Shown in pieces: positions 5,103 to 16,803 of a stretch of DNA of 19,398 nt. This DNA comes from Candidatus Rokuibacteriota bacterium (GTDB lineage Bacteria > Methylomirabilota > Methylomirabilia > Rokubacteriales > JACPHL01). Under the pieces are notes generated by a model that was given only the letters and a program-made list of their open reading frames with translations, searched no databases and was not told where the DNA came from. A program made the translations under genes and the position numbers. Every line of letters starts with the position of its first letter. The stretch's first letter is position 1. The stretch lies in contig JACPHL010000107.1 of the NCBI GenBank assembly GCA_016188625.1, forward strand, positions 1 to 19,398, written 5' to 3'.

Positions 5103-6350
5103 TCAGTAACGACCGATACCGCCAGCGCCGAGGTTGTCCGCCGTCTCGAGCGCCGCGTCCCCGGCCGCCGCGTAGTACGCGAGGGCCGCCTCCACCCCCG
5201 CGCCAGGCGCGGCGCACCAGCCCTCCCGCCGCAGGACGGCCTCCAGGGCGGCGAGGCAGAGCAGGACGTTGGGGCGCCGCGCCGAGTACCCCATGGTCCC
5301 GATCCGCCAGATCTTCCCCTGGAGCGGCCCGAAGGCCGCGCCGATCTCGATCCCGAAATCCTGGAGCAACCGCTGCCGGACGCGCAGCTCGTCCACCCCC
5401 TCCGGCACGATCACCGGCGTGATCATGGGGAGGCGGTAGGCGGGCGGCTCCGCGCCGAAGAGGGTGAGCCCGAGCGCGGAGATCCCGGCGCGCAGGGCGT
5501 CGCCGTGGAGCCGGTGGCGCTCGAAACGCGCCTTGAGCCCCTCCACCTTGACCCCGTACAGCGCCTCGCGGAGCCCATAGACCATCGCGGTCGGCGCCGT
5601 GTGGTGGTTGAAGCGGTCGGGACTCCAGTAGGTGGCGAGCTGCCCGAGATCGAGGTAGTTGGACTGGACCTTCCGGCGTCGCCGCTCCAGCGCTGTCTCC
5701 GCCCGCGCGTTATAGGTGAGCGGGGCGAGGCCCGACGGGCAGCTCAGGCACTTCTGGGTGCCCGCCACGACCACGTCGAGTCCCCATGCGTCCGTCGCCA
5801 CCTCCGCTCCGCCAAGCGTCACCACGGCATCGACGACGAGGAGCGCGTCGTGGGCGCGCGTCAGCCGCGCGATCTCGGTGAGGGGCTGAAGGACCCCGGT
5901 CGAGGTCTCCCCGTGCACCATGCACACGAGCTTGGTCTGTCCCCGCGCGAGGGCCCGGGCGATCACGTCCGGCTCGATGATGCGCCCCCATTCGGCCTCC
6001 ACCTGGACGACCTCCGCCCCGCACCGCTCGGCGATCTCGCAGAACAGAAGGCCAAACCGGCCAGAGACGCCCACGACCACGCGCTCGCCGGGCTCGACCA
6101 GAGACGCCACGGCCGCCTCGAGCCCGGCCCGCCCCGTGCCGGGGACGGGGAACGCGCGCGCATTCGCCGTCTGGAAGGCGAAGCGGCAGAGTTCCATCAC
6201 GTCGTCCATGACAGCGGTGAACTCAGGGTCGAACTGCCCCAGGAGCGGGGAGGCCATCGCCCGCAGGACGCGCGGGTCGGCCATGCTCGGGCCGGGGCCG
6301 AGGAGGATCCGGGGGCTGGGGAGGAGGTCCTGGAAGGCGTCCCGGGGCAT
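5103..6350 (-). CDS. pucG: PucG-type (S)-ureidoglycine--glyoxylate aminotransferase
   Basis: 415 residues, class V PLP aminotransferase. The likely PLP lysine is K200 in AGTQKCLSCPSG, and the ring-nitrogen Asp is D174 in VVDAVVTLGG. Segments such as SPLLGQFDPEFT, MVHGETSTG, YWSPDRFNHHT, EGLKARFERHR and GKIWRIGTMGYS match, from memory, Bacillus PucG almost word for word. The protein lacks a short insertion after the lysine region that I recall in the Bacillus enzyme. PucG transfers the amino group of ureidoglycine to glyoxylate, giving glycine; it belongs to allantoin breakdown. Related enzymes are alanine- or serine-glyoxylate aminotransferases. It is the last gene of the nine-gene catabolic operon, 19 bases after the amidohydrolase stop, and agrees with the PuuE gene upstream. 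Cytoplasmic. Confidence 0.88.
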   Translation of the reverse strand: MPRDAFQDLLPSPRILLGPGPSMADPRVLRAMASPLLGQFDPEFTAVMDDVMELCRFAFQTANARAFPVPGTGRAGLEAAVASLVEPGERVVVGVSGRFGLLFCEIAERCGAEVVQVEAEWGRIIEPDVIARALARGQTKLVCMVHGETSTGVLQPLTEIARLTRAHDALLVVDAVVTLGGAEVATDAWGLDVVVAGTQKCLSCPSGLAPLTYNARAETALERRRRKVQSNYLDLGQLATYWSPDRFNHHTAPTAMVYGLREALYGVKVEGLKARFERHRLHGDALRAGISALGLTLFGAEPPAYRLPMITPVIVPEGVDELRVRQRLLQDFGIEIGAAFGPLQGKIWRIGTMGYSARRPNVLLCLAALEAVLRREGWCAAPGAGVEAALAYYAAAGDAALETADNLGAGGIGRY

Positions 6351-6369
6351 CGCTGCTCCGCGCGCCGCC

Positions 6370-7881
6370 TCAGGGCCACATCGGTCCTGCCCAGCGGTTC
6401 ATCCCCACGTCCCGCGCCGCCGCGCGGACGTACATCGCCTCGTAGTACGGCATCAGCTCCCTGGCCGCCTCGGCCGCCCGGTCCAGCTCCTTGCGGTAGG
6501 CCGGCAAGATCTCCCGAGCCTCGGCCTTGATCGCCTCCTCGGCGACCGTCAGGACGCGCCCGCGCTCGGCCACCACGCGGCCGGCCACCATGGTCAGGAC
6601 CGAGGAGCCGTTCTCGCAGAAGACGAGCTGGCGCCGGAGGTCGTTGAGCGGCGTGAAGGCCAGCGCGCCGAGGTCCACCAGGATCAGGTCGGCCTCGTAG
6701 CCCGGCGCCAGCACCCCGACGCGTCCTTCGAGCCGCATGGCGCGGGCCCCGCCGCGGATGAGCGCCCACAGGATCTCCGCCGCGGTGGGCCAGCGCCGGT
6801 AGTCAGGGTCGGCGATCTTGTGGACGAGCCCGGCGGCCTTGGCGACGCCCCACATGTTGGCCGTGTCGTCCGCGGCCGCCTCGTCGCTGCCGAGGCAGAC
6901 GTTGATCCCGTGATCGCGGAGTCGCCGAAACGGCATGATGCCGCTGCCCAGCTTGAGATTGCACACCGGATTGTGGGCGACCGAGCATCCTGCCCGCGCC
7001 ATCAGGGACATGTCAGCCTCGTCCACCCAGACCGCGTGGGTCACCACCATGCGTTCGTCGAGCAGGCCGAGGCCATGGACGTGCCGGACCAGCGACTTCC
7101 CGTACTTCTCCTCGCCCAGGACGCGCTGCAGCTTCGTCTCCAGGACGTGAAGGTTGAACGGGAGATCGTGCCCGCGGCTCAGCCCGGCGAGGCCTTCGAG
7201 GTAATCCACGGTCACGCGCTGGGGCGCGGAGCAGGAGACGGCCGCCTGGATCCGGCCCCCGCCCGCGCCGTGCCACCGGTCGAGGAGATGTCGGTACAGC
7301 GCCAGCAGGTCGCCCGCGGACATCCGGGGCGCCGCGGCCATCCGGCGCCGCAACCCCTCCGGCAAGAGGTCGGAGAGGAAGGGGTACTTCTCGTACTCGA
7401 CGACGTTGGGTTGATCGAGAGCGACTGCCGCCCGCATTCCGCTGTCGGCATAGGCCTGCATCAGCCCGTCGATCGCCTCCTCGGTGGGCGCCGGGACGAA
7501 GTAGGCGTCGTCGTGGGCGGTGGTCACCCCGAGCTTCAGCATCTCGAGGATGCCGAGCATCGTCCGGACATAGTTGAGCCGCGGGGAAGGCGGCGCCTCC
7601 CCGAACGGAGGCACCTGGTAGAGCATGAAGATCTCGAGGGGCGTATCGTCCAGGGCCCCCTTCAGGAAGTTGCCGGGAGAGTGGACGTGGCCGTTGATGA
7701 GGCCGGGCACGAGCAGCCCCTCGGCCTCGATCGCGCGGAGGTCCGGCTCATCCCCGGGCACCGGAAGGGCAGGACCGATGGCGGCGATCCGCGTCCCGCG
7801 GACCAGGATATCTGCCCGAGCGTGCTCGGTGTCCCGATCATCCATGGTGAGGACGCGAGCGTTTCGGATCAGGATCGCCAC
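6370..7881 (-). CDS. Metal-dependent amidohydrolase/deaminase (ATZ/TRZ, cytosine-deaminase-like group)
   Basis: 503 residues from a GTG at 7881 that has GGAGGG four bases upstream; the frame is open further upstream, but only this start fits the family's N-terminus (LIRNARVLTMDD). Metal and active-site residues are visible: H65 and H67 in NGHVHS, H245 and E248 in LHVLETK, H282 in THA, and D333 in LGSDE. This set matches deaminases and chlorohydrolases such as SAH/MTA deaminase, guanine-type and s-triazine hydrolases with one divalent metal. The sequence is about 50 residues longer than the average for the group. Substrate is unknown. Placed between DUF3830 and PucG genes, it may deaminate or hydrolyse a purine or an allantoin-pathway compound. 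It is not an AllC-type (M20 peptidase fold) allantoate amidohydrolase. Cytoplasmic. Confidence 0.85.
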   Translation of the reverse strand: MAILIRNARVLTMDDRDTEHARADILVRGTRIAAIGPALPVPGDEPDLRAIEAEGLLVPGLINGHVHSPGNFLKGALDDTPLEIFMLYQVPPFGEAPPSPRLNYVRTMLGILEMLKLGVTTAHDDAYFVPAPTEEAIDGLMQAYADSGMRAAVALDQPNVVEYEKYPFLSDLLPEGLRRRMAAAPRMSAGDLLALYRHLLDRWHGAGGGRIQAAVSCSAPQRVTVDYLEGLAGLSRGHDLPFNLHVLETKLQRVLGEEKYGKSLVRHVHGLGLLDERMVVTHAVWVDEADMSLMARAGCSVAHNPVCNLKLGSGIMPFRRLRDHGINVCLGSDEAAADDTANMWGVAKAAGLVHKIADPDYRRWPTAAEILWALIRGGARAMRLEGRVGVLAPGYEADLILVDLGALAFTPLNDLRRQLVFCENGSSVLTMVAGRVVAERGRVLTVAEEAIKAEAREILPAYRKELDRAAEAARELMPYYEAMYVRAAARDVGMNRWAGPMWP

Positions 7882-7952
7882 GGGACCCTCCAGGCTCCCC
7901 CGCCCTCGACCTCGGTGTCCATGTCCTCGCCCGCTTCCCTCAACCGACCGGG

Positions 7953-8360
7953 TCAGATCTCCTCGAAGAGGATGTCCTGCGCGCCCTCCCAGAGCACCAG
8001 GCGTCCGAGCTCCGGCAGCCGCTCGCGCCCGTCGACGATGGTCAGGAAGTGGTTGCCGGCGAGCTGCCCGACCTTGCTGGCGAAGCGCGCGCTGCCGTAG
8101 ACGAAGAGGATCTCCGCCTCGCTCAGGCTGCCGGGATGGAACAGGATGTCGCCGGCCGACGGGTGGCTGGTGTGATTCTCGTAGCCCACGCCGAGCTTGA
8201 AGTCCCCGAGCGGGATCCAGCACGCCTCGCCGCTCCATCGCGCGTGGATGATCTTCTGGCGGAACGGCAGCAGCTTGCGGAACGCGGCGCAGGTCTCGGG
8301 CGCCGCCTCCTCTTCCATCCGCGCGGCGAAGACAAACGGGCCAACGGTAATCCGAAGCAT
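7953..8360 (-). CDS. DUF3830 family protein (cyclophilin-like fold predicted)
   Basis: 135 residues from the ATG at 8360. The ribosome site GGAGGG overlaps the end of the puuE gene, only four bases away. Conserved-looking stretches include [17 protein letters not shown] near the N-terminus, [17 protein letters not shown] in the middle, and [17 protein letters not shown] toward the end. From memory these match DUF3830, a family of unknown activity often found next to amidohydrolase, amidase and transporter genes and proposed to have a cyclophilin-like barrel. There is no signal peptide or membrane helix. Its tight coupling to allantoinase suggests a role in the same pathway, perhaps as ring hydrolase, isomerase or binding partner, but nothing in the sequence proves this. 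A 71-base gap to the next gene holds nothing evident except its ribosome site. Confidence 0.8.
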
Positions 8361-8364
8361 CCGG

Positions 8365-9294
8365 CTACCCTCCGCCGCGGGGCCGGTACGGGTGATGGGC
8401 GATCCAGTGACGCGCGATGTCCACGCGCCGGCAGATCCACACCCGATCATGGCGCTGCACATAGTCCAGGAACCGGGCCAGGACGGCCGCCCGCCCGGGG
8501 CGTCCGGCCAGTCGCGCGTGGAGGCCCACGGACATCATTTTGGGATGGTCCACCCCCTCCGCGTAGAGGAGGTCGAAGGCGTCCCGCAGATAGCCGAAGA
8601 AATCCTCGCCCGTGTTGAACCCTTGAGCGGTCGCGAACTTCATGTCGTTGTTGTCAAGGGTGTAGGGGATGACGAGGTGGGGCTTGCCGGACACCTCGAC
8701 CCAGTAGGGCAGGTCGTCGTTGTAGGCGTCGGCGTCGTAGAGGAACCCACCCTCCTCCACCACGAGGCGGCGCGTGTTGGGGCTGACCCGTCCCGTGTAC
8801 CAGCCGAGCGGCCGGCTCCCCGTGACACGCTGGATCATCTCGACGGCGAGCCGGATGTGAGTGCGCTCCTCGTCCTCGCTGATGAACTGGTAGTCGATCC
8901 AGCGCCAGCCGTGACTCGCCACTTCATAGCCGGCCTCGACGATCGCCGCCGCGGCCTCGGGGTTGCGTTCAAGCGCCATGGCCACGGCGTAGACGGTGAC
9001 CTTGATGCCCCGCTCGGCGAACAGCCGCATCAGCCGCCAGAATCCGGCGCGGCTCCCGTACTCATAGACCGACTCGACCACGAGGTTACGGGCCCCAGGG
9101 AGCGGCCCCGTTCCGACGACCTCGTGGAGGTAGGCCTCGGAGGCGGCGTCGCCATGGGGGATGCACGTCTCCCCTCCCTCCTCATAGTTCATGACGATCT
9201 GCAGCGCGAGGCGCGCGCCGGCCGGCCATTTCGGGTCGGGCGGATGCTGGCCGTAACCTACGAGGTCACGCGGATAGGGTCCTATTCCGGCCAC
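8365..9294 (-). CDS. puuE: PuuE-type allantoinase (polysaccharide deacetylase fold)
   Basis: 309 residues, GTG start at 9294 with AGGAGGG ten bases upstream. It follows the known metal-independent allantoinase PuuE throughout: [18 protein letters not shown] at the start, NYEEGGE (36-42), [25 protein letters not shown], the [11 protein letters not shown] strand, [42 protein letters not shown] and [14 protein letters not shown]. The enzyme opens the hydantoin ring of allantoin to give allantoate, and it is normally paired with later ureide enzymes. Length matches the family (about 305-320). It sits between the transporter genes and the DUF3830 gene and with PucG forms the clearest evidence that the operon handles allantoin. 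Cytoplasmic. Confidence 0.93.
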
Positions 9295-9321: not shown

Positions 9322-10032
9322 TCAGGCACCGAGCCCCAGGTACGCCGTGCGCATGTGTGGGTCGGCCTGCAATGCGCCGCTCGTCCCGGCAAGGGCGATC
9401 CGGCCATTCTCGATTACGTAACCCCGACCGGCGATCTCCAGCGTCTGGTGGACGTTCTGCTCGACCATCAGCACGGTCGTCCCTGCCTCGTGGATCTTCC
9501 GGATCGCCCTGAACATCTCCGTCACGACGATGGGCGCCAACCCCAGCGATGGCTCGTCGAGCAGGAGGAGCCGAGGCCGCGCCATCAGCGCCCGGCCCAG
9601 GGCGACCATCTGCTGCTCGCCCCCCGAGAGCGTCCGGGCGACCTGGGCGCGCCGTTCCGCGAGCTGAGGGAAGAGGGCGAATACCTGCTCGACCCGTCGG
9701 GCGATCTCCGAGCGGTCGCGCCAGGTATAGGCCCCGAGCCGGAGGTTTTCCTCGACCGTCATGTCGGGAAACAGCTTGCGCCCCTCCGGGCAGAGGCACA
9801 GGCCGAGGGCCACCCGCTCGTGGGAGGGCAGGGCTGTCACGTCCTGCCCGAGGAAGTGGATCCGGCCCTGCTGCGCCGGCACGAGGCCGGCCACCGTGTT
9901 CACGAGCGAGGTCTTCCCCGCTCCGTTCGGGCCGACCACCGCGACCAGTTCCCCTTGGGCGACGGTGATCGACACGTCCCAGACGGCCGTCACCTGACCG
10001 TAGGCGACCTGGAGACCCTTGACCTCAAGCAC
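9322..10032 (-). CDS. livF: ABC transporter ATP-binding protein, LivF type
   Basis: 236 residues, GTG start at 10032. All nucleotide-binding motifs are intact: Walker A GPNGAGKT (34-41), signature LSGGEQQ (135-141) and Walker B LLLLDEPSLGLAP ending in the catalytic Glu160. The C-terminal stretch with MVEQNVHQTLEIAGRGYVIENG is typical of LivF of the hydrophobic amino acid uptake (HAAT) family. It powers import together with LivG at the inner face of the membrane. Its first eight bases (GTGCTTGA) are the last bases of livG, so translation is coupled. The allantoinase gene follows after 27 bases. The importer's substrate is probably the ureide or ring compound the following enzymes degrade rather than leucine. 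Confidence 0.95.
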   Translation of the reverse strand: MLEVKGLQVAYGQVTAVWDVSITVAQGELVAVVGPNGAGKTSLVNTVAGLVPAQQGRIHFLGQDVTALPSHERVALGLCLCPEGRKLFPDMTVEENLRLGAYTWRDRSEIARRVEQVFALFPQLAERRAQVARTLSGGEQQMVALGRALMARPRLLLLDEPSLGLAPIVVTEMFRAIRKIHEAGTTVLMVEQNVHQTLEIAGRGYVIENGRIALAGTSGALQADPHMRTAYLGLGA

Positions 10033-10765
10033 GGGCAGGACTTCCGTCAGTCGTTCCGAAGTAGGCCTCGACGACCGCCGGCTGGTGGATGACCTCGTCC
10101 GGTCGCCCCTCGGCGATCAGGCTTCCGTGGTGGAGCACGTACATCCGCTCGGCGAGCGCGAGGACCGCGCGGACGAGGTGCTCGACGATCACCAGGGTGA
10201 CGCCGCGCCCGCGGATCTGCCGAAGGAGCCCGATGGCCTGGTCCACCTCGGCGGGCCTGAGCCCCGCCATGATCTCGTCGAGCAGGACGAGCTTCGGCTG
10301 CGTCGCCAGCGCGCGCGCCATCTCCAGCCGCTTCTGTTCCGGCAGGGTCAGGTTGCCGGCAGGCTGCCCGGCCCTGGGGCTGAGCCCGACGAGGTCGAGC
10401 ACCTCCGCGGCGATGCGCCTGGCGGTGGCGAGCGTCTCCCGGCCGCCCCGGAGGGCCCCGATGACCACGTTCTCGCGCACCGAAAGGCCGGCGAACGGTT
10501 GGACGATCTGAAAGGTGCGCGCGAGCCCCAGGGCGTTGATCCGGGACGGCCGAAGGCCGACGATCGACCGGCCGTCGAACCGGATGTCGCCATCCTCCGG
10601 TCGAAGGAACCCCGAGGCTGTCGCGAAGAGCGTCGTCTTCCCCGAGCCGTTGGGGCCGATGATCCCGACGATCTCCCCCGCCCCGACGCGCAGGGAGACG
10701 CCGTCCAGCGCCGTCAGCCCGCCGAAGCGCTTGGTCACCCGCTCCAGCTCCAGGAGCGTGCTCAT
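10025..10765 (-). CDS. livG: ABC transporter ATP-binding protein, LivG type
   Basis: 246 residues. Walker A GPNGSGKT (37-44) and Walker B LVLLDE (159-164) are intact. The ABC signature is degenerate: NLTLPEQKR (138-146) instead of the usual SGGQ or YGQQ form, with Pro142 where Gly is normal. LivG proteins tolerate variation here, and the partner LivF has a canonical signature. The body ends with IVEHLVRAVLALAERMYVLHHG, the H-loop region of LivG. It follows livM after 48 bases and overlaps livF by eight bases. Inner membrane-associated. Confidence 0.94.
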   Translation of the reverse strand: MSTLLELERVTKRFGGLTALDGVSLRVGAGEIVGIIGPNGSGKTTLFATASGFLRPEDGDIRFDGRSIVGLRPSRINALGLARTFQIVQPFAGLSVRENVVIGALRGGRETLATARRIAAEVLDLVGLSPRAGQPAGNLTLPEQKRLEMARALATQPKLVLLDEIMAGLRPAEVDQAIGLLRQIRGRGVTLVIVEHLVRAVLALAERMYVLHHGSLIAEGRPDEVIHQPAVVEAYFGTTDGSPARA

Positions 10766-10813: not shown

Positions 10814-11869
10814 CTACGACGCCGTCCTGGCGGTCAGCCGCCGGTGCCAGGCCTCGAGGTACGCCGCAAAGCCCCGGGGCAGGAGCAGGCACCCGGCGAC
10901 GAGGACCGAGCCGTAGAGCACCAGGTAGAGCGCGTCGGCGCCGCCCCCGAGCCAGCCGCGCAGCAGGTCTTCCATGGGCTTGACCAAGGCGGTCCCCAGA
11001 AGCGGCCCGATCAGGCTCAGCCGGCCGCCGATCACCGGTCCCAGCAGCATCTCGAAGTTCTTGGCGAGGCTGAACGACAGCTTGGGGTCGATGAAGCTGG
11101 TGAACTGGCCCCAGAACGCCCCGATGGCTCCCGCGAGCCCGCCGCTGATGACGATGGCAAGGGTCTTGACGCGGGACTCGTTGATCCCGATCGCCTCCGC
11201 GGCCTGCGCGTTCTCCCGCACGGCCGCCAGGTAGTAGCCGAGCCTCGAGCGCTGGATCGCGTAGCTGACGGCGAGCGCCACCAGCAGGAGGCCGAGGGCG
11301 ATCACCAGGTACGGCCGGCGCCCGGTGAAGCTCATGGCCCAGAAGTCGTCGCGCACCACGGTGATGTAGATGCCGGTGGCGCGCCCCGCGTAATCCCAGT
11401 TCAGGAAGAGGAGCTTCAGGACCTGTGAGACGGCCACGGTGAACAGGGCGAAGTAGTCCTCGCTCAAACCGAACCGGAGCGTTACGGCAGCGATCAGCAG
11501 TGCCAGAAGAGCCGCGGCCGCGGCCGCCAGCACGAGGTTCGCCCACGGGCTCACGCCGAACTTCGTGAACAGGAGTCCGTTCACGTAGGCGCCGATCCCG
11601 AAGAAGCTGATGTAGCCCAGCAGCAGTAGCCCGCCGAGGCCGCCGGCGATCGCCCAGCTGATCCCGATCCCCGCGTATATCGTCGCCAGGACCATGATCT
11701 GGATGTAGTACGTGGACTCGACGAGCCATCCGACGAGTGCCGCCAGGACGAGGGCGCCGAGGCACAGGGCGAGCTGCGCGTTCAGCCAATCGGCGCAGAA
11801 GGCGGCCAGGCGTCCTATCGGCCCGTTCAGCGGGGCTACGCGCGTCGTATCGGCTGGGCCGGGGGTCAT
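10814..11869 (-). CDS. livM: ABC transporter permease, LivM type
   Basis: 351 residues from the ATG at 11869, which overlaps the livH stop in an ATGA arrangement. The reading frame runs on upstream inside livH, but that part is a shadow. Eight or more hydrophobic helices are visible. Family landmarks are the segment YISFFGIGAYVNGLLFTKFG (about 85-104), GLSEDYFALFTVAVSQVL and the cytoplasmic loop LAAVRENAQAAEAIGINESRVK that contacts the ATPase. The C-terminus contains GPVIGGRLSLIGPLLGTALV. Together with LivH it forms the translocation path of the HAAT importer in the cytoplasmic membrane. Confidence 0.94.
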   Translation of the reverse strand: MTPGPADTTRVAPLNGPIGRLAAFCADWLNAQLALCLGALVLAALVGWLVESTYYIQIMVLATIYAGIGISWAIAGGLGGLLLLGYISFFGIGAYVNGLLFTKFGVSPWANLVLAAAAAALLALLIAAVTLRFGLSEDYFALFTVAVSQVLKLLFLNWDYAGRATGIYITVVRDDFWAMSFTGRRPYLVIALGLLLVALAVSYAIQRSRLGYYLAAVRENAQAAEAIGINESRVKTLAIVISGGLAGAIGAFWGQFTSFIDPKLSFSLAKNFEMLLGPVIGGRLSLIGPLLGTALVKPMEDLLRGWLGGGADALYLVLYGSVLVAGCLLLPRGFAAYLEAWHRRLTARTAS

Positions 11870-12741
11870 GTCATGCGCCCACCGAACACCCCGCGCGGCA
11901 GCCACAGCAGGATCAGGACGAAGACCGCGAGGCTCGCGAACTGCCGCAGCGCGGCCCCCAGGAGAAGCCCGCCGAAGCTCTCGGCGAGCCCGATGACGAG
12001 GCCACCGACCATCGCCCCGACGAAGTTGCCCATCGTCCCGAGCACGACGATGACGAAGGCCGGCAACAGGAAGTAGTCGATCCCGAAGGTCGGGTTGATG
12101 AAGAAGACCGGCGCGATCAGGGCCCCCGCCAGCGCGGCGAGGCCGGTGCCCAGCCCGAACGTCACCAGGTTCACGCGCTCCACATTGATCCCCATCAGGC
12201 GCGCGGCGTCGGGGCTCTGGGCCGCAGCGCGGATCGCCAGGCCGCCCCGGGCGCGCTTGAGGAAGACCCAGAACCCGGCGGCGATCGCCACGGCAACCCC
12301 GAACGCGATGAGCCGCGTGTACGTCACCCTCAGATCCCCCAGCCCCAGGGTCGCGCGGCCCCACGGCAGGGGCACCACGTAGTTCCTGGGGCCCCAGATG
12401 ATCTGCATCGCGCCGATCAGCATGGTGGACAGGCCGATGGTGATCAGCAACTGGTTGATCTGGGGATGCCGCAACGCCGGACGGATCAGCGTCCGCTGGA
12501 CCGCCGCGCCGAGCACGAAGACGAGGCCGAGCGCGAAGACCGCGGCGAGGTACGGGCTCACGCCGAGCAAGGTGTAGGCGGAGAACGCGAGGTACATCCC
12601 GAGCGTGAGGAACTCGGCGTGGGCGAAGTTGACGACCTTCATCACGCCGTAGATCAGGGTCAGACCGGCCGCTACCAGGGCGTAGATGCCGCCCTGGAGT
12701 AAGCCCAGGACCATGGCCTGGACGAGGATCTCGGCCGTCAC
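11866..12741 (-). CDS. livH: ABC transporter permease, LivH type
   Basis: 291 residues, GTG start at 12741, 28 bases after the binding-protein stop. The N-terminus VLGLLQGGIYALVAAGLTLI followed by YGVMKVVNFAHAEFLTLGMY is diagnostic of LivH. Eight or so membrane helices are seen, and the loop LAIRAAAQSPDAARLMGINV is the ATPase-coupling region. The ATGA overlap with livM shows they are translated together. Inner membrane. Confidence 0.95.
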   Translation of the reverse strand: MTAEILVQAMVLGLLQGGIYALVAAGLTLIYGVMKVVNFAHAEFLTLGMYLAFSAYTLLGVSPYLAAVFALGLVFVLGAAVQRTLIRPALRHPQINQLLITIGLSTMLIGAMQIIWGPRNYVVPLPWGRATLGLGDLRVTYTRLIAFGVAVAIAAGFWVFLKRARGGLAIRAAAQSPDAARLMGINVERVNLVTFGLGTGLAALAGALIAPVFFINPTFGIDYFLLPAFVIVVLGTMGNFVGAMVGGLVIGLAESFGGLLLGAALRQFASLAVFVLILLWLPRGVFGGRMT

Positions 12742-12769: not shown

Positions 12770-14035
12770 TCAGCCCCGTCGGCCCCAGTCCGGGACGGGC
12801 CAGACGGCGTCCGTCACCTTCAGGGACTCCGGCCAGATGACCCGAGCCTGGCCGTCGCGCACCTGGGCGCCGACGAGCTTCGCGTAGGTCATGAATCCCG
12901 TCTGGTCGAACTTCACGCGCTCGTACATGAACATCGGCGCCCCGCTCGTCAGGTCGAGCCCGGCGAGCGCGTCCCGGATCTTCGCCCCGTCCGTGGAGCC
13001 CGCCTTCTCGAGCGTCGCGTAGAAGATGTGGACCCCCGCGTAGGTCGTGTTGGCATTCCCCAACATGTCCAAACCCGTCCGGGTCTTGAACCGAGCGTTG
13101 ATCTCCTGGGCCCCCGGTCGCTTGATGTCGGGGAACCAGTCGTTCACCGCGATGAGACCGTTGGCCAGCTTGCCGAGGTTCTTCCACGTGATGGGGTTCG
13201 AGTACCCGCCGCCCACGCCGACCCAACCCAGTCTCGGCCAGTACCTCAGCTCGTTGAGCTGCTGGAAGAGCAGGGTGATCGAGGAGGGTTCCCCGGCCGC
13301 GAACACCGCGTCCGGGTTGTCCTGCTTGAGCCTGAGGATCACGTCCTCGAACGACGTCGGATTGGTCGGGAAGACGTTGTCGCTGATGATCTTGAGGTTG
13401 AAGCTCGGGATGTGCTTGTTGAACTCCCGGCCGACGACGTTGCCGAAGAAGTTGTTCTCGCGGACGAGGCCGGCCGTCTTGACCTCGAGGCCGGCCTTCT
13501 TGCTCAGGTCCCGCACCAGCTCGCCGCCGTTGATGGCGAACTGGGAGAAATGCGGCACCGACTTGAACACGTACTTCAGCCCGCGCCCCGTGATCTCGTC
13601 CGCCAGCGCGTTCGGAACCAGGTACGGGATGCCGGCGCGCTCGGCGATCACGGTGCTCGAGAGCGTTGCGCCCGAGGAATACGCGCCGATAATCCCGATG
13701 ACCTTCTCCCGGGCGATCAGGCGCTCGGTTTCAGTGTTCGCCTCGTCGACCGTGCTGGAGTTGCCGAAGAGGGCCACGAGCCGGGCGCCGCCCAGGCTCT
13801 TGACCCCGCCGGCCTGGTTGATCTCCTCCACGGCCATCTCCACGGCCTGCTTGTTGAGCTGCCCGGCCTCGGCGAAGGCGCCGGTCAGCGGCAAGAGGAA
13901 CCCGACCTTGACCTCTTTCGGCTGCGCGCTCACCCGGCTCAGGGCCGGGCCGGCCGCCAGCATGAGGCCAGCACCCGCCACACCCTTGAGGAACTGACGC
14001 CGCCCGACTCGGGACTTACTCGTCCTGCTCTCCAT
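12770..14035 (-). CDS. Branched-chain amino acid-type ABC substrate-binding protein with Tat signal
   Basis: 421 residues. The N-terminus has a twin-arginine signal, GRRQFLKG (R12-R13), a hydrophobic core (about 18-30) and a likely cleavage near residue 37 (RVSA). The mature part starts EVKVGFLLPLTGAFAEAGQ, the first strand and ligand loop of LivJ-like (peripheral binding protein 6) proteins. Later segments IGAYSSGATLSSTVIAERAG and PDAVFAAGEP fit the same two-lobed fold. It is the first gene of the operon, with a good ribosome site (AGGGGGAGG, eight bases before the ATG). It should bind the imported compound outside the membrane. The family also binds amides, urea and aromatic acids, so an allantoin- or ureide-like ligand is an inference from the operon. 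Folding before export (Tat) is unusual for most LivJ proteins but common in some soil bacteria. Confidence 0.93.
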   Translation of the reverse strand: MESRTSKSRVGRRQFLKGVAGAGLMLAAGPALSRVSAQPKEVKVGFLLPLTGAFAEAGQLNKQAVEMAVEEINQAGGVKSLGGARLVALFGNSSTVDEANTETERLIAREKVIGIIGAYSSGATLSSTVIAERAGIPYLVPNALADEITGRGLKYVFKSVPHFSQFAINGGELVRDLSKKAGLEVKTAGLVRENNFFGNVVGREFNKHIPSFNLKIISDNVFPTNPTSFEDVILRLKQDNPDAVFAAGEPSSITLLFQQLNELRYWPRLGWVGVGGGYSNPITWKNLGKLANGLIAVNDWFPDIKRPGAQEINARFKTRTGLDMLGNANTTYAGVHIFYATLEKAGSTDGAKIRDALAGLDLTSGAPMFMYERVKFDQTGFMTYAKLVGAQVRDGQARVIWPESLKVTDAVWPVPDWGRRG

Positions 14036-14421
14036 CGCCGTCGCCTCCCCCTATCCGGTCACGTCGGTTGAGGTGATGCCCTGATCGCACTCCCCGGCCG
14101 TCCGTGCGGTACGCCCCGCCGGCAAACTCTTGTAGACAATACTGACGATTTTTGTATACGATATTGACCGCTATGTGTGATGCCTACAGGAAGTGCAGGA
14201 TGCCAACTGGAAGAGCTGGCGAGGCCAGGCGGTCCGCGCAATGAGCTCGATCCGTTCAAAGCCCCTGCTCGTGGGCTCGTCGGGTGGATCTTTATTTTTG
14301 TGTACATTGATTACTTTTTTGTATACAATAGAGCGAGCAGATCAAACTTGTCAAGCGTTTCTTGCACACAATATGTTGGGGCGATCCTATTTGGTGTTCA
14401 ACCTGTGGAAGTGCGTCATCC
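14036..14421. promoter_or_regulatory. Divergent control region with five GntR-type operator candidates
   Basis: A 386-base AT-rich gap between the binding-protein gene and gntR. Five related decamers fit the pattern TTGTATACAA: 14130-14139 (TTGTAGACAA), 14152-14161 (TTGTATACGA), 14298-14307 (TTGTGTACAT), 14319-14328 (perfect palindrome TTGTATACAA) and 14362-14371 (TTGCACACAA). Within the pairs, starts are 22 and 21 bases apart, about two DNA turns, and the fifth is 43 bases from the fourth. GntR/FCD regulators bind short palindromes of this kind, so these are likely operators for the adjacent regulator. No convincing promoter was found for the leftward operon. Bases 14172-14290 show nothing recognisable. 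Confidence 0.55.
14298..14327 (+). promoter_or_regulatory. Possible gntR promoter overlapping operators
   Basis: TTGTGT (14298-14303), an 18-base spacer and TATACA (14322-14327) make a moderate sigma70-like promoter. Both boxes lie inside operator candidates, which would give simple autorepression. The start of transcription would fall near 14335, leaving a leader of about 87 bases. Confidence 0.35.
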
Positions 14422-15168
14422 ATGAGCCAGGTTAGCCGACAAGTAGCGCGACGGTCCGCCCCGCCCCGCCGGCGAACCGCTCGACGCCGGGCGGCCACCA
14501 CGGAAGCGATCGTCGAACGGATCGCTACGGCAATCGCTGAGCACCGCCTGCCACCCGGGACCAAGCTCGGCGAGGAGGCGCTCGGTGAGATCTTCGGCGT
14601 CAGCCGGACCAAGGCGCGCCAGGCCCTGCATCGGCTCGCCACCGACAAGCTCGTGACGCTCCTGCCGCATCGCGGCGCGTTCGTGGCCCAGCCCACCGTG
14701 CTCGAGGCGCGCGAGGTCTTCGAGGCCCGCCGCGTCCTGGAACCGGCTGTGGTCGCCCGCTTCGTCGATGTGGCGACGCCTGATCAGATCGAGACGCTCC
14801 TCGAGCACCATGCGCGCGAACAGGCCGCCATCGCCACGAACGACGCCCGGGCGGCGCAGCGGCTCCTCGGCTGGTTCCACGTCTTGATCGCCGAGATGGC
14901 CGGCAACCGCGTGCTCGCCGACGTGCTGCGCGAACTGGTGATGCGCTCGTCCCTCATCACGCTGCTCTACCAGACCACCGCCGACTCGAGACGCTCGTCG
15001 GAGGAGCACCGCGAGCTCATCGCTCACATCGAGAAGCGCGAGGTCGAGCAGGCGGTGGAGCTCGCGACCCGCCACCTCGAGCGCGTCGAGGCCGGCCTGG
15101 CCTTGAGGGAGCCGTCGAGCGAGGTGGTGGACCTGAAGTCCGCGCTCGCCGCCGCCGGGGCCGGCTGA
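14422..15168 (+). CDS. GntR family transcriptional regulator, FCD subfamily
   Basis: 248 residues from the ATG at 14422; a TTG at 14362 in the same frame would add 20 residues, but it lies inside an operator candidate. After a basic tail (1-26) comes the winged helix (about 27-90), with LPPGTKLGEEALGEIFGVSRT leading into KARQALHRLATDKLVTLLPHRG, the GntR signature. The FCD ligand domain (about 98-225) is all-helical, and its H153, H196 and H218 are at positions like the metal-binding histidines of such domains. FCD regulators usually repress adjacent catabolic genes until a small carboxylate or pathway intermediate binds. The gene is divergent from the transporter/allantoinase operon and very probably controls it. 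The nature of the inducer is unknown. Confidence 0.93.
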   Translation: MSQVSRQVARRSAPPRRRTARRRAATTEAIVERIATAIAEHRLPPGTKLGEEALGEIFGVSRTKARQALHRLATDKLVTLLPHRGAFVAQPTVLEAREVFEARRVLEPAVVARFVDVATPDQIETLLEHHAREQAAIATNDARAAQRLLGWFHVLIAEMAGNRVLADVLRELVMRSSLITLLYQTTADSRRSSEEHRELIAHIEKREVEQAVELATRHLERVEAGLALREPSSEVVDLKSALAAAGAG

Positions 15169-15213: not shown

Positions 15214-16803
15214 TCAGCGCAACCGGGCGGTCCGCGCCTTGGCCTCGAACTGGCGGTCGTAGAGCTGGCGGAGCCGGGCCAGGGTGTCGGCCTGGGCCGG
15301 GGATTTGTCGTCCCGGATCCGCGTGATCCGGGCGAAGCGGAGGGCGAACCCCGAGGGGTAGTGCGCGCTCCGCTGGATCTCGTTGTAGCCGACCTCCACC
15401 ACCACCTCAGGCCGGACCCGGACCGTCACCCCGTCCTCCGCGGCCTTGAGGGCCAGGAGCCAGTCGGTCATCGTCGCGAACTCGGCGTCGGTCAGCCCCT
15501 TGAAGGTCTTCCCCACCTCGGCGAACCCGCCGCTCGCCTCGTCCCGCACGGCCAGGTGGTAGTTGGAGAGCCACCCGCGCCGCCGCCCCGACCCCCAGTC
15601 CGCGGCCACGATCACGCAGTCCAGGCGCTCGGCCGGCTTCACCTTGAACCAGCGCCGGCCGCGGACCCCGGGGGTGTACGGGCTCGCCAGGGCCTTGGCC
15701 ATCACCCCCTCGTGCCCGGCCGCGAGGGCCTCGGCGAGGAAGGCCTCGGCCTCGCCGAGACCGGCGGGGACGATCCGGCGCGCCAGATCCCGCCCCCCGC
15801 TGATCCGCTCGAGCTCGCCCCAGCGCGCCCGGTACGGCTCGTCGATGAGGGAGCGGCCGTCCAGGTAGAGGCAGTCGAAGAGGTAGAGGGCCAGGGGGAG
15901 GCCCCGGGCGGTCTCGGCCACCCCGTGGACCCGGCGGAAGCGCCGCATCAGCTCCTGGAACGGGAGCGGCCGGCCCTCGGCCCCGATCGCCACCACCTCC
16001 CCGTCGAGGATCGCCTCCCGGGCCCGGAGCCGGGTGCGCACCAGCTCGGTGATGTCGGGGAGGCTCGCCGTGACCTCCGAGAGGCGCCGGCTCCAGATCC
16101 TGACCTCGTCCCCGGCCTTGTGGAGCTGGATCCGGGCCCCGTCGTACTTGACCTCGAGGGCGGTCTGCCCGGCGTGCTCCTCGAAGACCTCCTCGAGCCC
16201 CTCGGCCATCTCGGCCATCATCGGGAGCAGCGGGACGAAGAGCCGGGGCCGGGCGGCGCCGAGCCGTTCAGCCCCCTCGGCGAGGGCGACGCGCGCCACC
16301 TCGGAGAGGTCGCCGAGGAAGAGCGCGGCCCGCCGGATGACCTGCGCGTCCACCCCCGCGGCCCGGGCCACCGCCTCCTGGATCAACCCCTCGTGGACCC
16401 CGATCCGCATCTCGCCCATGAGGATGTGGACGAGGGTCTCCGCCTCCTCCCGCGAGGCGCGGCCGAGGAGGTCCGCGAGGAGGCGCGCCTTCTCCCGGCG
16501 CGAGCCTGCTCCCGTGGCGGCGGCGATCGCCTCGAAGGCCCGGGCGGCCTCGAGGAGGGTGAGGCCGCCCCTGCGGGGCGTCGGCGCGGCCCGCTCCCGG
16601 ACGCGCGCGAGGGTCGCCCAGCTCACCCCGAGGTCGCGGGGATCCGATGACGGGAGGGGGCGGCCGGCTAGGAAGGCGACCGCCCAGGGGACCTCCTCGG
16701 GGTCGAGCCGGCGGAGGGCGTCGGCGACCAGGGCGATCTTCGGAAGGCGCCGGGGCGTCGCCGCCAGCTCCCGGCAGAGGCGGCCGAACGCCTCGAACGT
16801 CAT
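15214..16803 (-). CDS. ATP-dependent DNA ligase, three-domain archaeal/LIG1-like type
   Basis: 529 residues. An N-terminal helical DNA-binding domain (about 1-195, with EMRIGVHEGLIQEAVARA) precedes the nucleotidyltransferase domain. Motif I is EVKYDGARIQ, whose K219 would carry AMP; motif III is LYLFDCLYLDG; motif IV is EGVMAK; and motif V is WFKVKP. The C-terminal OB-fold domain ends with EVGYNEIQRSAHYPSGFALRFARI. This layout resembles archaeal ligases and LigB of some Actinobacteria rather than short bacterial LigD or LigC. The essential NAD-dependent LigA is not in the window. It seals nicks during repair; being below lexA hints at, but does not prove, a DNA-damage role. Its ATG overlaps the stop of the methyltransferase-like gene (ATGA). 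The 45-base gap to the convergent gntR shows no strong terminator. Confidence 0.95.
   Translation of the reverse strand: MTFEAFGRLCRELAATPRRLPKIALVADALRRLDPEEVPWAVAFLAGRPLPSSDPRDLGVSWATLARVRERAAPTPRRGGLTLLEAARAFEAIAAATGAGSRREKARLLADLLGRASREEAETLVHILMGEMRIGVHEGLIQEAVARAAGVDAQVIRRAALFLGDLSEVARVALAEGAERLGAARPRLFVPLLPMMAEMAEGLEEVFEEHAGQTALEVKYDGARIQLHKAGDEVRIWSRRLSEVTASLPDITELVRTRLRAREAILDGEVVAIGAEGRPLPFQELMRRFRRVHGVAETARGLPLALYLFDCLYLDGRSLIDEPYRARWGELERISGGRDLARRIVPAGLGEAEAFLAEALAAGHEGVMAKALASPYTPGVRGRRWFKVKPAERLDCVIVAADWGSGRRRGWLSNYHLAVRDEASGGFAEVGKTFKGLTDAEFATMTDWLLALKAAEDGVTVRVRPEVVVEVGYNEIQRSAHYPSGFALRFARITRIRDDKSPAQADTLARLRQLYDRQFEAKARTARLR

Follow-up and report, generated by a model that had tools for sequence, protein, structure and literature searches.

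A minus-strand operon on a 19,398-nucleotide contig of Candidatus Rokuibacteriota bacterium (assembly GCA_016188625.1, contig JACPHL010000107.1; the whole contig, G000:C239, was analyzed and is called the window below) carries a variant of the known pathway for using allantoin, which arises when DNA bases are degraded, and within it a small protein of the DUF3830 family that is well supported as a conserved, unrecognised ureide-pathway member common to bacteria and haloarchaea. The operon encodes, in order, a substrate-binding protein, LivH, LivM, LivG, LivF, PuuE, DUF3830, an ATZ/TRZ-type amidohydrolase and a PucG-type aminotransferase, and the genome is a metagenome-assembled genome (MAG) of 2.6 Mb that is 84% complete. 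Our overall reading, to which we give about an even chance of being right, is that the operon serves the uptake and catabolism of allantoin, that AllC is encoded away from it, and that DUF3830 is a ureide-pathway enzyme acting on an adduct of glyoxylate with an amine.

The PuuE-PucG operon and the AllC step

The last four genes of the operon, which a sequence-only reading of the window had singled out, were all confirmed in position and on the minus strand. PuuE (8365–9294), an allantoinase of the polysaccharide-deacetylase fold, scores 506 bits against the equivalog model TIGR03212 (cut-off 424.6 bits) and matches the PuuE allantoinase in Protein Data Bank (PDB) entry 3cl6 with E = 3e-134. 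The aminotransferase (5103–6350) has as its top PDB matches 3isl (PucG, 422 bits) and 3nnk (ureidoglycine-glyoxylate aminotransferase, 388 bits), the next best reaching 312 bits; being closer to PucG/UGXT structures than to AGT/SGAT, it is clearly closest to the PucG type and is predicted to act as an (S)-ureidoglycine-glyoxylate aminotransferase. Both names proposed by the sequence-only reading are thereby borne out, and the tight coupling that it saw between DUF3830 (7953–8360) and puuE is real, because the two genes are 4 nt apart (the gaps from the LivF gene on through pucG are 27, 4, 71 and 19 nt). The same gene pair recurs in the window's order: PucG orthologues 73–79% identical to the window's adjoin PuuE in 12 loci, and in ten relatives PuuE and PucG (69–79% identical) occur as a pair, in most cases along with UraD, UraH or XDH.

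The enzyme between PuuE and PucG, AllC, had been taken to be missing. This holds for the window, where no M20/AllC gene is found among the open reading frames, but not for the genome, in which one full-length M20 hydantoinase/carbamoylase-family protein is encoded on another contig (G000:C240:106-1296). This protein exceeds the NCBIfam subfamily model NF006771 “allantoate amidohydrolase” (455.6 against a cut-off of 399 bits), and we conclude from its sequence that AllC is probably present, unlinked to the operon. Two observations weigh against the assignment: the protein falls short of the AllC equivalog TIGR03176 (253 against 597.75 bits), and its closest solved structure is an L-carbamoylase; AllC activity is therefore likely rather than demonstrated. 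TIGR03176 is also failed by operon-linked M20 proteins (L116, 353 bits; L080, 242 bits), of which L116, embedded in a Chloroflexota urate operon, likewise exceeds NF006771 (400 bits). In a tree of the C240 protein and 51 other M20 proteins, read without regard to support values, it falls outside the group in which M20 proteins of its order usually lie; its placement next to operon-linked AllC proteins is weak.

No linked M20 gene is found in the PuuE-PucG operons of the ten relatives, and an unlinked AllC is therefore ordinary in this order, as is the apparent gap in the present operon. Separately, six urate operons of the order (L195, L197–L200 and L203, from G012, G029, G056, G022, G050 and G057) contain XDH, UraD, UraH, PuuE and PucG, with no linked AllC and no uricase match with the reference proteins used. 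In the window's MAG (84% complete), searches for uricase, HIU hydrolase, OHCU decarboxylase, AllA and AllE all came back empty; with due regard to its incompleteness, the lack of the first three fits import of allantoin itself.

DUF3830 in ureide gene neighbourhoods

The DUF3830 protein, 135 residues long and of the AGNHF subfamily, matches PF12903 with 120.8 bits (gathering cut-off 26; E = 6e-35). Scanning 84,980 species genomes turned up 80 close homologues, 61–82% identical, whose neighbourhoods were read by tblastn with reference proteins because gene calls put some high-GC loci on the wrong strand. The neighbours found in the 80 loci are allantoinase/hydantoinase (22), AllC-type M20 proteins (20), UraH (16), UraD (15), ATZ-type amidohydrolase (14), XDH (10), Gcl (9), Hyi (9), uricase (8), GlxK (7) and PuuE (6), and, of the 40 loci flanked by 9 kb or more of sequence in each direction, 26 have one or more pathway markers within 10 kb.

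The arrangements differ among lineages. Chloroflexota and Gemmatimonadota have UraD-UraH, in some cases with uricase, divergent from DUF3830-AllB-AllC, and in many of these loci an ATZ-type amidohydrolase is present too. Rhizobiales (L080, L085 and L089) have DUF3830-puuE-AllC, and a Bradyrhizobium locus also holds an Asp/Glu-racemase-like gene, identified by reading its sequence only. In betaproteobacteria the order is Gcl-Hyi-DUF3830-GlxK, with allantoicase and PuuE close by in some, and on plasmids of Azospirillum and Agrobacterium DUF3830 directly follows hydA. Haloarchaea have amidohydrolase-DUF3830-M20 hydrolase together with uraH, pucL and uraD, the neighbour being of AllC type in Halomarina; comparable gene sets recur in further haloarchaeal records, and the Haloferax volcanii genome has matches to the models for DUF3830, OHCU decarboxylase, uricase and HIU hydrolase. 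As to whether the four genes of the window stay together elsewhere, DUF3830 is found with puuE in Rhizobiales; DUF3830 beside pucG was not found outside the window.

Because the 80 loci had been selected by similarity to the window, we added a sample of 151 Chloroflexota genomes drawn evenly and not picked by likeness to it. DUF3830 is present in 34 of these, OHCU decarboxylase in 28 and both in 22; OHCU decarboxylase thus occurs in 22/34 carriers of DUF3830 versus 6/117 non-carriers (Fisher p = 8e-13, a value that overstates the number of independent events because the genomes are related), and the two genes lie within 10 kb of each other in 19 of the 22 co-carrying genomes. OHCU decarboxylase is found in 21/24 genomes with strong DUF3830 matches versus 1/10 with only weak (distant) ones, and the tie is therefore a property of this DUF3830 subfamily. 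Distant paralogues, 25–36% identical and some of them in tandem, occur in G003, G031, G075 and G091, where a search with the window's proteins gave no PuuE, PucG or amidohydrolase match and the gene lists showed no ureide genes; they have a role separate from that of the ureide-linked subfamily. In two of these genomes (L043, G091:C230; L045, G003:C396) tandem distant paralogues, four in one cluster, have genes for peptide ABC transporters and a cyclase-like protein nearby.

That DUF3830 is a widespread companion of ureide pathways in bacteria and archaea is well supported by these data, and the suggestion of the sequence-only reading that it functions in ureide or hydantoin metabolism gains from both the linkage in several phyla and the co-occurrence with OHCU decarboxylase. 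Of the two findings that this reading said would count against it, an allC elsewhere in the genome has largely been borne out, and a lack of conserved linkage has not: DUF3830 is linked to puuE and AllC in Rhizobiales and to UraH/UraD, AllB and AllC in Chloroflexota and Gemmatimonadota. In L090 and L098 (Variovorax/Comamonadaceae), DUF3830 is clustered with a dihydropyrimidinase-like gene, an ABC transporter and, judged by eye, a barbiturase-type ring-opening amidohydrolase, which suggests a pyrimidine or barbiturate context; in L040 (G018:C68), the DUF3830 frame is fused through a run of N to that of a peptide-binding protein, which probably reflects how the assembly was joined, and genes for a nitrilase, a diaminopropionate ammonia-lyase-like protein and an M20 carbamoylase lie nearby.

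Fold of DUF3830 and its possible reaction

The structure model of DUF3830 is very confident (pLDDT 96) and has a cyclophilin-like fold. Its top structural match is 3KOP (Z 20.2), followed, over 126–127 residues, by the catalytic domain of the Pictet-Spenglerases KslB (Z 18.4; root-mean-square deviation 1.9, 127 residues aligned) and McbB (Z 17.0), enzymes that couple amines with keto acids, with TM1367 and true cyclophilins ranking behind these. The true cyclophilins (Z about 11–12) score under 3KOP, KslB, McbB and TM1367, which speaks against a role as a peptidyl-prolyl isomerase. KslB/McbB-type proteins are also recovered purely from sequence, with a profile built on diverse DUF3830 proteins (E 0.0008–0.005). 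Across 61 DUF3830 sequences from several phyla, more than 30 residues, many of them polar, are invariant, including R41, W42, S43, G44, E45, E61, N62, E81, E83, N103 and H104. In the literature searched, we found no publication that mentions DUF3830 or that links a cyclophilin-like fold to allantoin, and no study of, or function for, 3KOP, the four papers matching that code being on other subjects to judge from their titles.

Ureidoglycolate is an adduct of glyoxylate with urea, and ureidoglycine an adduct of glyoxylate with urea and ammonia. Because these compounds are glyoxylate adducts, the substrate chemistry of DUF3830 would, by analogy, be akin to that of KslB, which condenses L-Trp with alpha-ketoglutarate (PMC12513458). 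In the pathway as we envisage it, the Liv-type transporter would import a ureide, PuuE would open allantoin to allantoate, the unlinked M20 allantoate amidohydrolase on contig C240 would make ureidoglycine from allantoate, and PucG would transaminate ureidoglycine with glyoxylate. DUF3830 would most likely be a small cofactor-free enzyme of the superfamily of Pictet-Spenglerase/cucumopine synthase catalytic domains, working near the AllE, AllA or PucG step; as candidate reactions, it might convert ureidoglycine into ureidoglycolate, or split ureidoglycolate into glyoxylate and urea. PucG requires glyoxylate as its amino acceptor, and the presence of both proteins in one operon could make sense because glyoxylate made by DUF3830 would supply PucG. 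That DUF3830 of the AGNHF subfamily breaks ureidoglycine or ureidoglycolate with the very domain by which Pictet-Spenglerases build such adducts is a proposal that we advance tentatively.

The distribution of the known enzymes of this step is relevant here. Among ten genomes that combine DUF3830 with urate or PuuE-AllC operons (G099–G106, G108 and G109), AllA is absent from nine and found, weakly, in one (G101), and no PucG-like protein exceeds about 35% identity to PucG of the window; AllE exceeds its cut-off in none of the 20 genomes checked, these ten included. Together with the fact that most relatives of the window's order with PuuE-PucG operons lack DUF3830, this scarcity of AllE, AllA and PucG fits the pattern that a DUF3830 enzyme working at the ureidoglycine/ureidoglycolate end of the pathway would produce. 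Several findings weigh against this assignment. AllA is present together with DUF3830 in all six tested betaproteobacteria with gcl clusters (G110–G115), and DUF3830 is therefore not a simple replacement for AllA; in Paracoccus, allE lies near two DUF3830 genes. No ureide marker is found in 14 of the 40 well-flanked loci, and some DUF3830 genes adjoin a hydantoinase or dihydropyrimidinase, where a glyoxylate adduct is not obvious. DUF3830 is found in only 8 of 99 searched relatives of the window's order, and is therefore not essential to the pathway, and the link to Pictet-Spenglerases is remote, at 20% identity and E-values of 0.0008–0.007. It should be noted that a Bradyrhizobium genome (G107) carries an AllA-family protein as well.

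Four other explanations were considered. The sequence-only reading had proposed that DUF3830, the amidohydrolase or both perform the conversion of allantoate to ureidoglycine in place of AllC, as the lack of AllC from the operon and the coupling of DUF3830 to puuE might suggest; we rejected this as highly improbable, given that an AllC-family gene is present in the genome, that PuuE-PucG operons of relatives are likewise without a linked AllC and mostly without DUF3830, and that DUF3830 adjoins AllC in Chloroflexota, Gemmatimonadota, Rhizobiales and haloarchaea (20/80 loci; Halomarina). The operon might instead serve another cyclic ureide or a hydantoin, with PuuE and PucG acting on analogues. 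The uricase, UraH and UraD not found in this genome and the occurrence of DUF3830 with hydantoinases would fit, but we hold this to be improbable: PuuE lies well over its equivalog cut-off, PuuE and PucG are closely similar to their counterparts in same-order operons, most with urate genes, and uricase would be needless if allantoin itself is imported.

The remaining two concern DUF3830 itself. It could racemise or epimerise 5-substituted hydantoins, allantoin among them, and so open both enantiomers to stereospecific ring-opening enzymes, and it does accompany three kinds of these (AllB, PuuE and D-hydantoinase/dihydropyrimidinase) and has conserved acid/base residues (E45, E61, E81, E83 and H104). 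We nevertheless regard this as unlikely, since an Asp/Glu-racemase-like gene, the known type of racemase, lies near DUF3830 in L080 and in Rhizobium johnstonii, and the betaproteobacterial copies stand in gcl-hyi and glxK clusters with no adjacent ring-opening enzyme. A non-catalytic role, in which DUF3830 would bind allantoinase/hydantoinase or AllC, act as their scaffold or help in their assembly, is likewise unlikely: more than 30 invariant residues, many polar, look more like an active site, and PuuE and AllB, both accompanied by DUF3830, are unrelated in fold. On the other side, DUF3830 is a small, single-domain protein often directly beside one of these enzymes, and the pathway has a precedent for protein partners in AllB-GlxK, E. 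coli allantoinase AllB being reportedly activated through GlxK binding (PMC10163214).

Returning to DUF3830 as an enzyme of ureide breakdown, the route by which urate and allantoin are broken down is textbook knowledge, but its final part is untidy: several of the genomes examined have the genes from urate to AllC and no recognisable enzyme for ureidoglycine or ureidoglycolate. In several phyla and in haloarchaea, DUF3830 now offers a specific candidate, open to testing, for some of that final part. A catabolic protein linked to the Pictet-Spenglerase domain would, if confirmed, suggest an origin for that alkaloid-making chemistry. The chief value of the analysis lies in the conserved link between DUF3830 and ureide catabolism, previously unpublished as far as our search went, and in a fold that suggests a mechanism.

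Other operon genes and known systems

The ATZ/TRZ-type amidohydrolase (6370–7881; GTG start; PF01979, E = 3.5e-42) passes no specific NCBIfam model, all best matches being below cut-off, and its nearest PDB entry is the MTA/SAH deaminase 4f0r. Its nearest homologue within a DUF3830 locus, in Rhizobium johnstonii, is 40% identical, and a 39% identical Sinorhizobium homologue adjoins a nucleoside hydrolase and a BMP-type ABC transporter. Our best guess is that it is probably a deaminase of a nucleobase-like compound; nothing points to its being AllC.

Upstream lie, on the same strand, genes for a periplasmic substrate-binding protein of a Liv/Urt-type ABC transporter (12770–14035; Peripla_BP_6, E = 1.5e-47), a LivH/UrtB-type permease (11866–12741; TIGR03409, 169 bits, under the cut-off of 250), a LivM-type permease (10814–11869; ATG start at 11869), assigned from position and sequence, a LivG-type ATPase (10025–10765; NF008449, E = 1e-55) and a LivF-type ATPase (9322–10032; NF008626, E = 5e-76). 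The substrate-binding protein reaches 71 of the 493 bits required by the UrtA model, and the substrate is therefore not assignable from the model. Divergent from the operon, on the plus strand, is a GntR/FCD-family regulator (14422–15168, possible TTG start at 14362; Pfam GntR, E = 8e-16, and FCD, E = 3e-21). A 529-residue open reading frame (15214–16803) adjoins the regulator gene and by eye resembles an ATP-dependent DNA ligase.

Compared with the PuuE-PucG branch of purine catabolism, the window has the same allantoinase and aminotransferase by sequence; it differs in that AllC is unlinked, DUF3830 and the ATZ/TRZ-type amidohydrolase are inserted, and uricase, UraH and UraD were not found in the MAG. 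Ureidoglycolate lyase AllA and ureidoglycine aminohydrolase AllE fill the steps that apparently lack an enzyme in DUF3830-bearing AllC operons, but belong to other Pfam/NCBIfam families than DUF3830 and coexist with it, AllA in betaproteobacteria, which leaves a strict AllA replacement unsupported, and AllE in Paracoccus. In the purine cluster Rxyl_2845–2847 of Rubrobacter xylanophilus, the uncharacterised Rxyl_2846 stands between allantoinase and allantoate carbamoyltransferase (PMC4016543), the position that DUF3830 has elsewhere; Rxyl_2846 may be a DUF3830 protein. The Arthrobacter cyclophilin-like protein 3KOP shares the fold and the profile family of DUF3830 (E = 2e-19) at 22% identity. 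Finally, KslB and McbB, of the cucumopine synthase family, contain a domain of about 137 residues that superposes on the entire DUF3830 protein, and an HAxxSGE-like motif is common to the DUF3830 profile and PDB entry 9uwa aligned to it; unlike DUF3830, a lone 135-residue domain in ureide operons, KslB and McbB are about 300 residues long, possess an additional helical portion and catalyse the condensation of L-Trp with a keto acid or an aldehyde.

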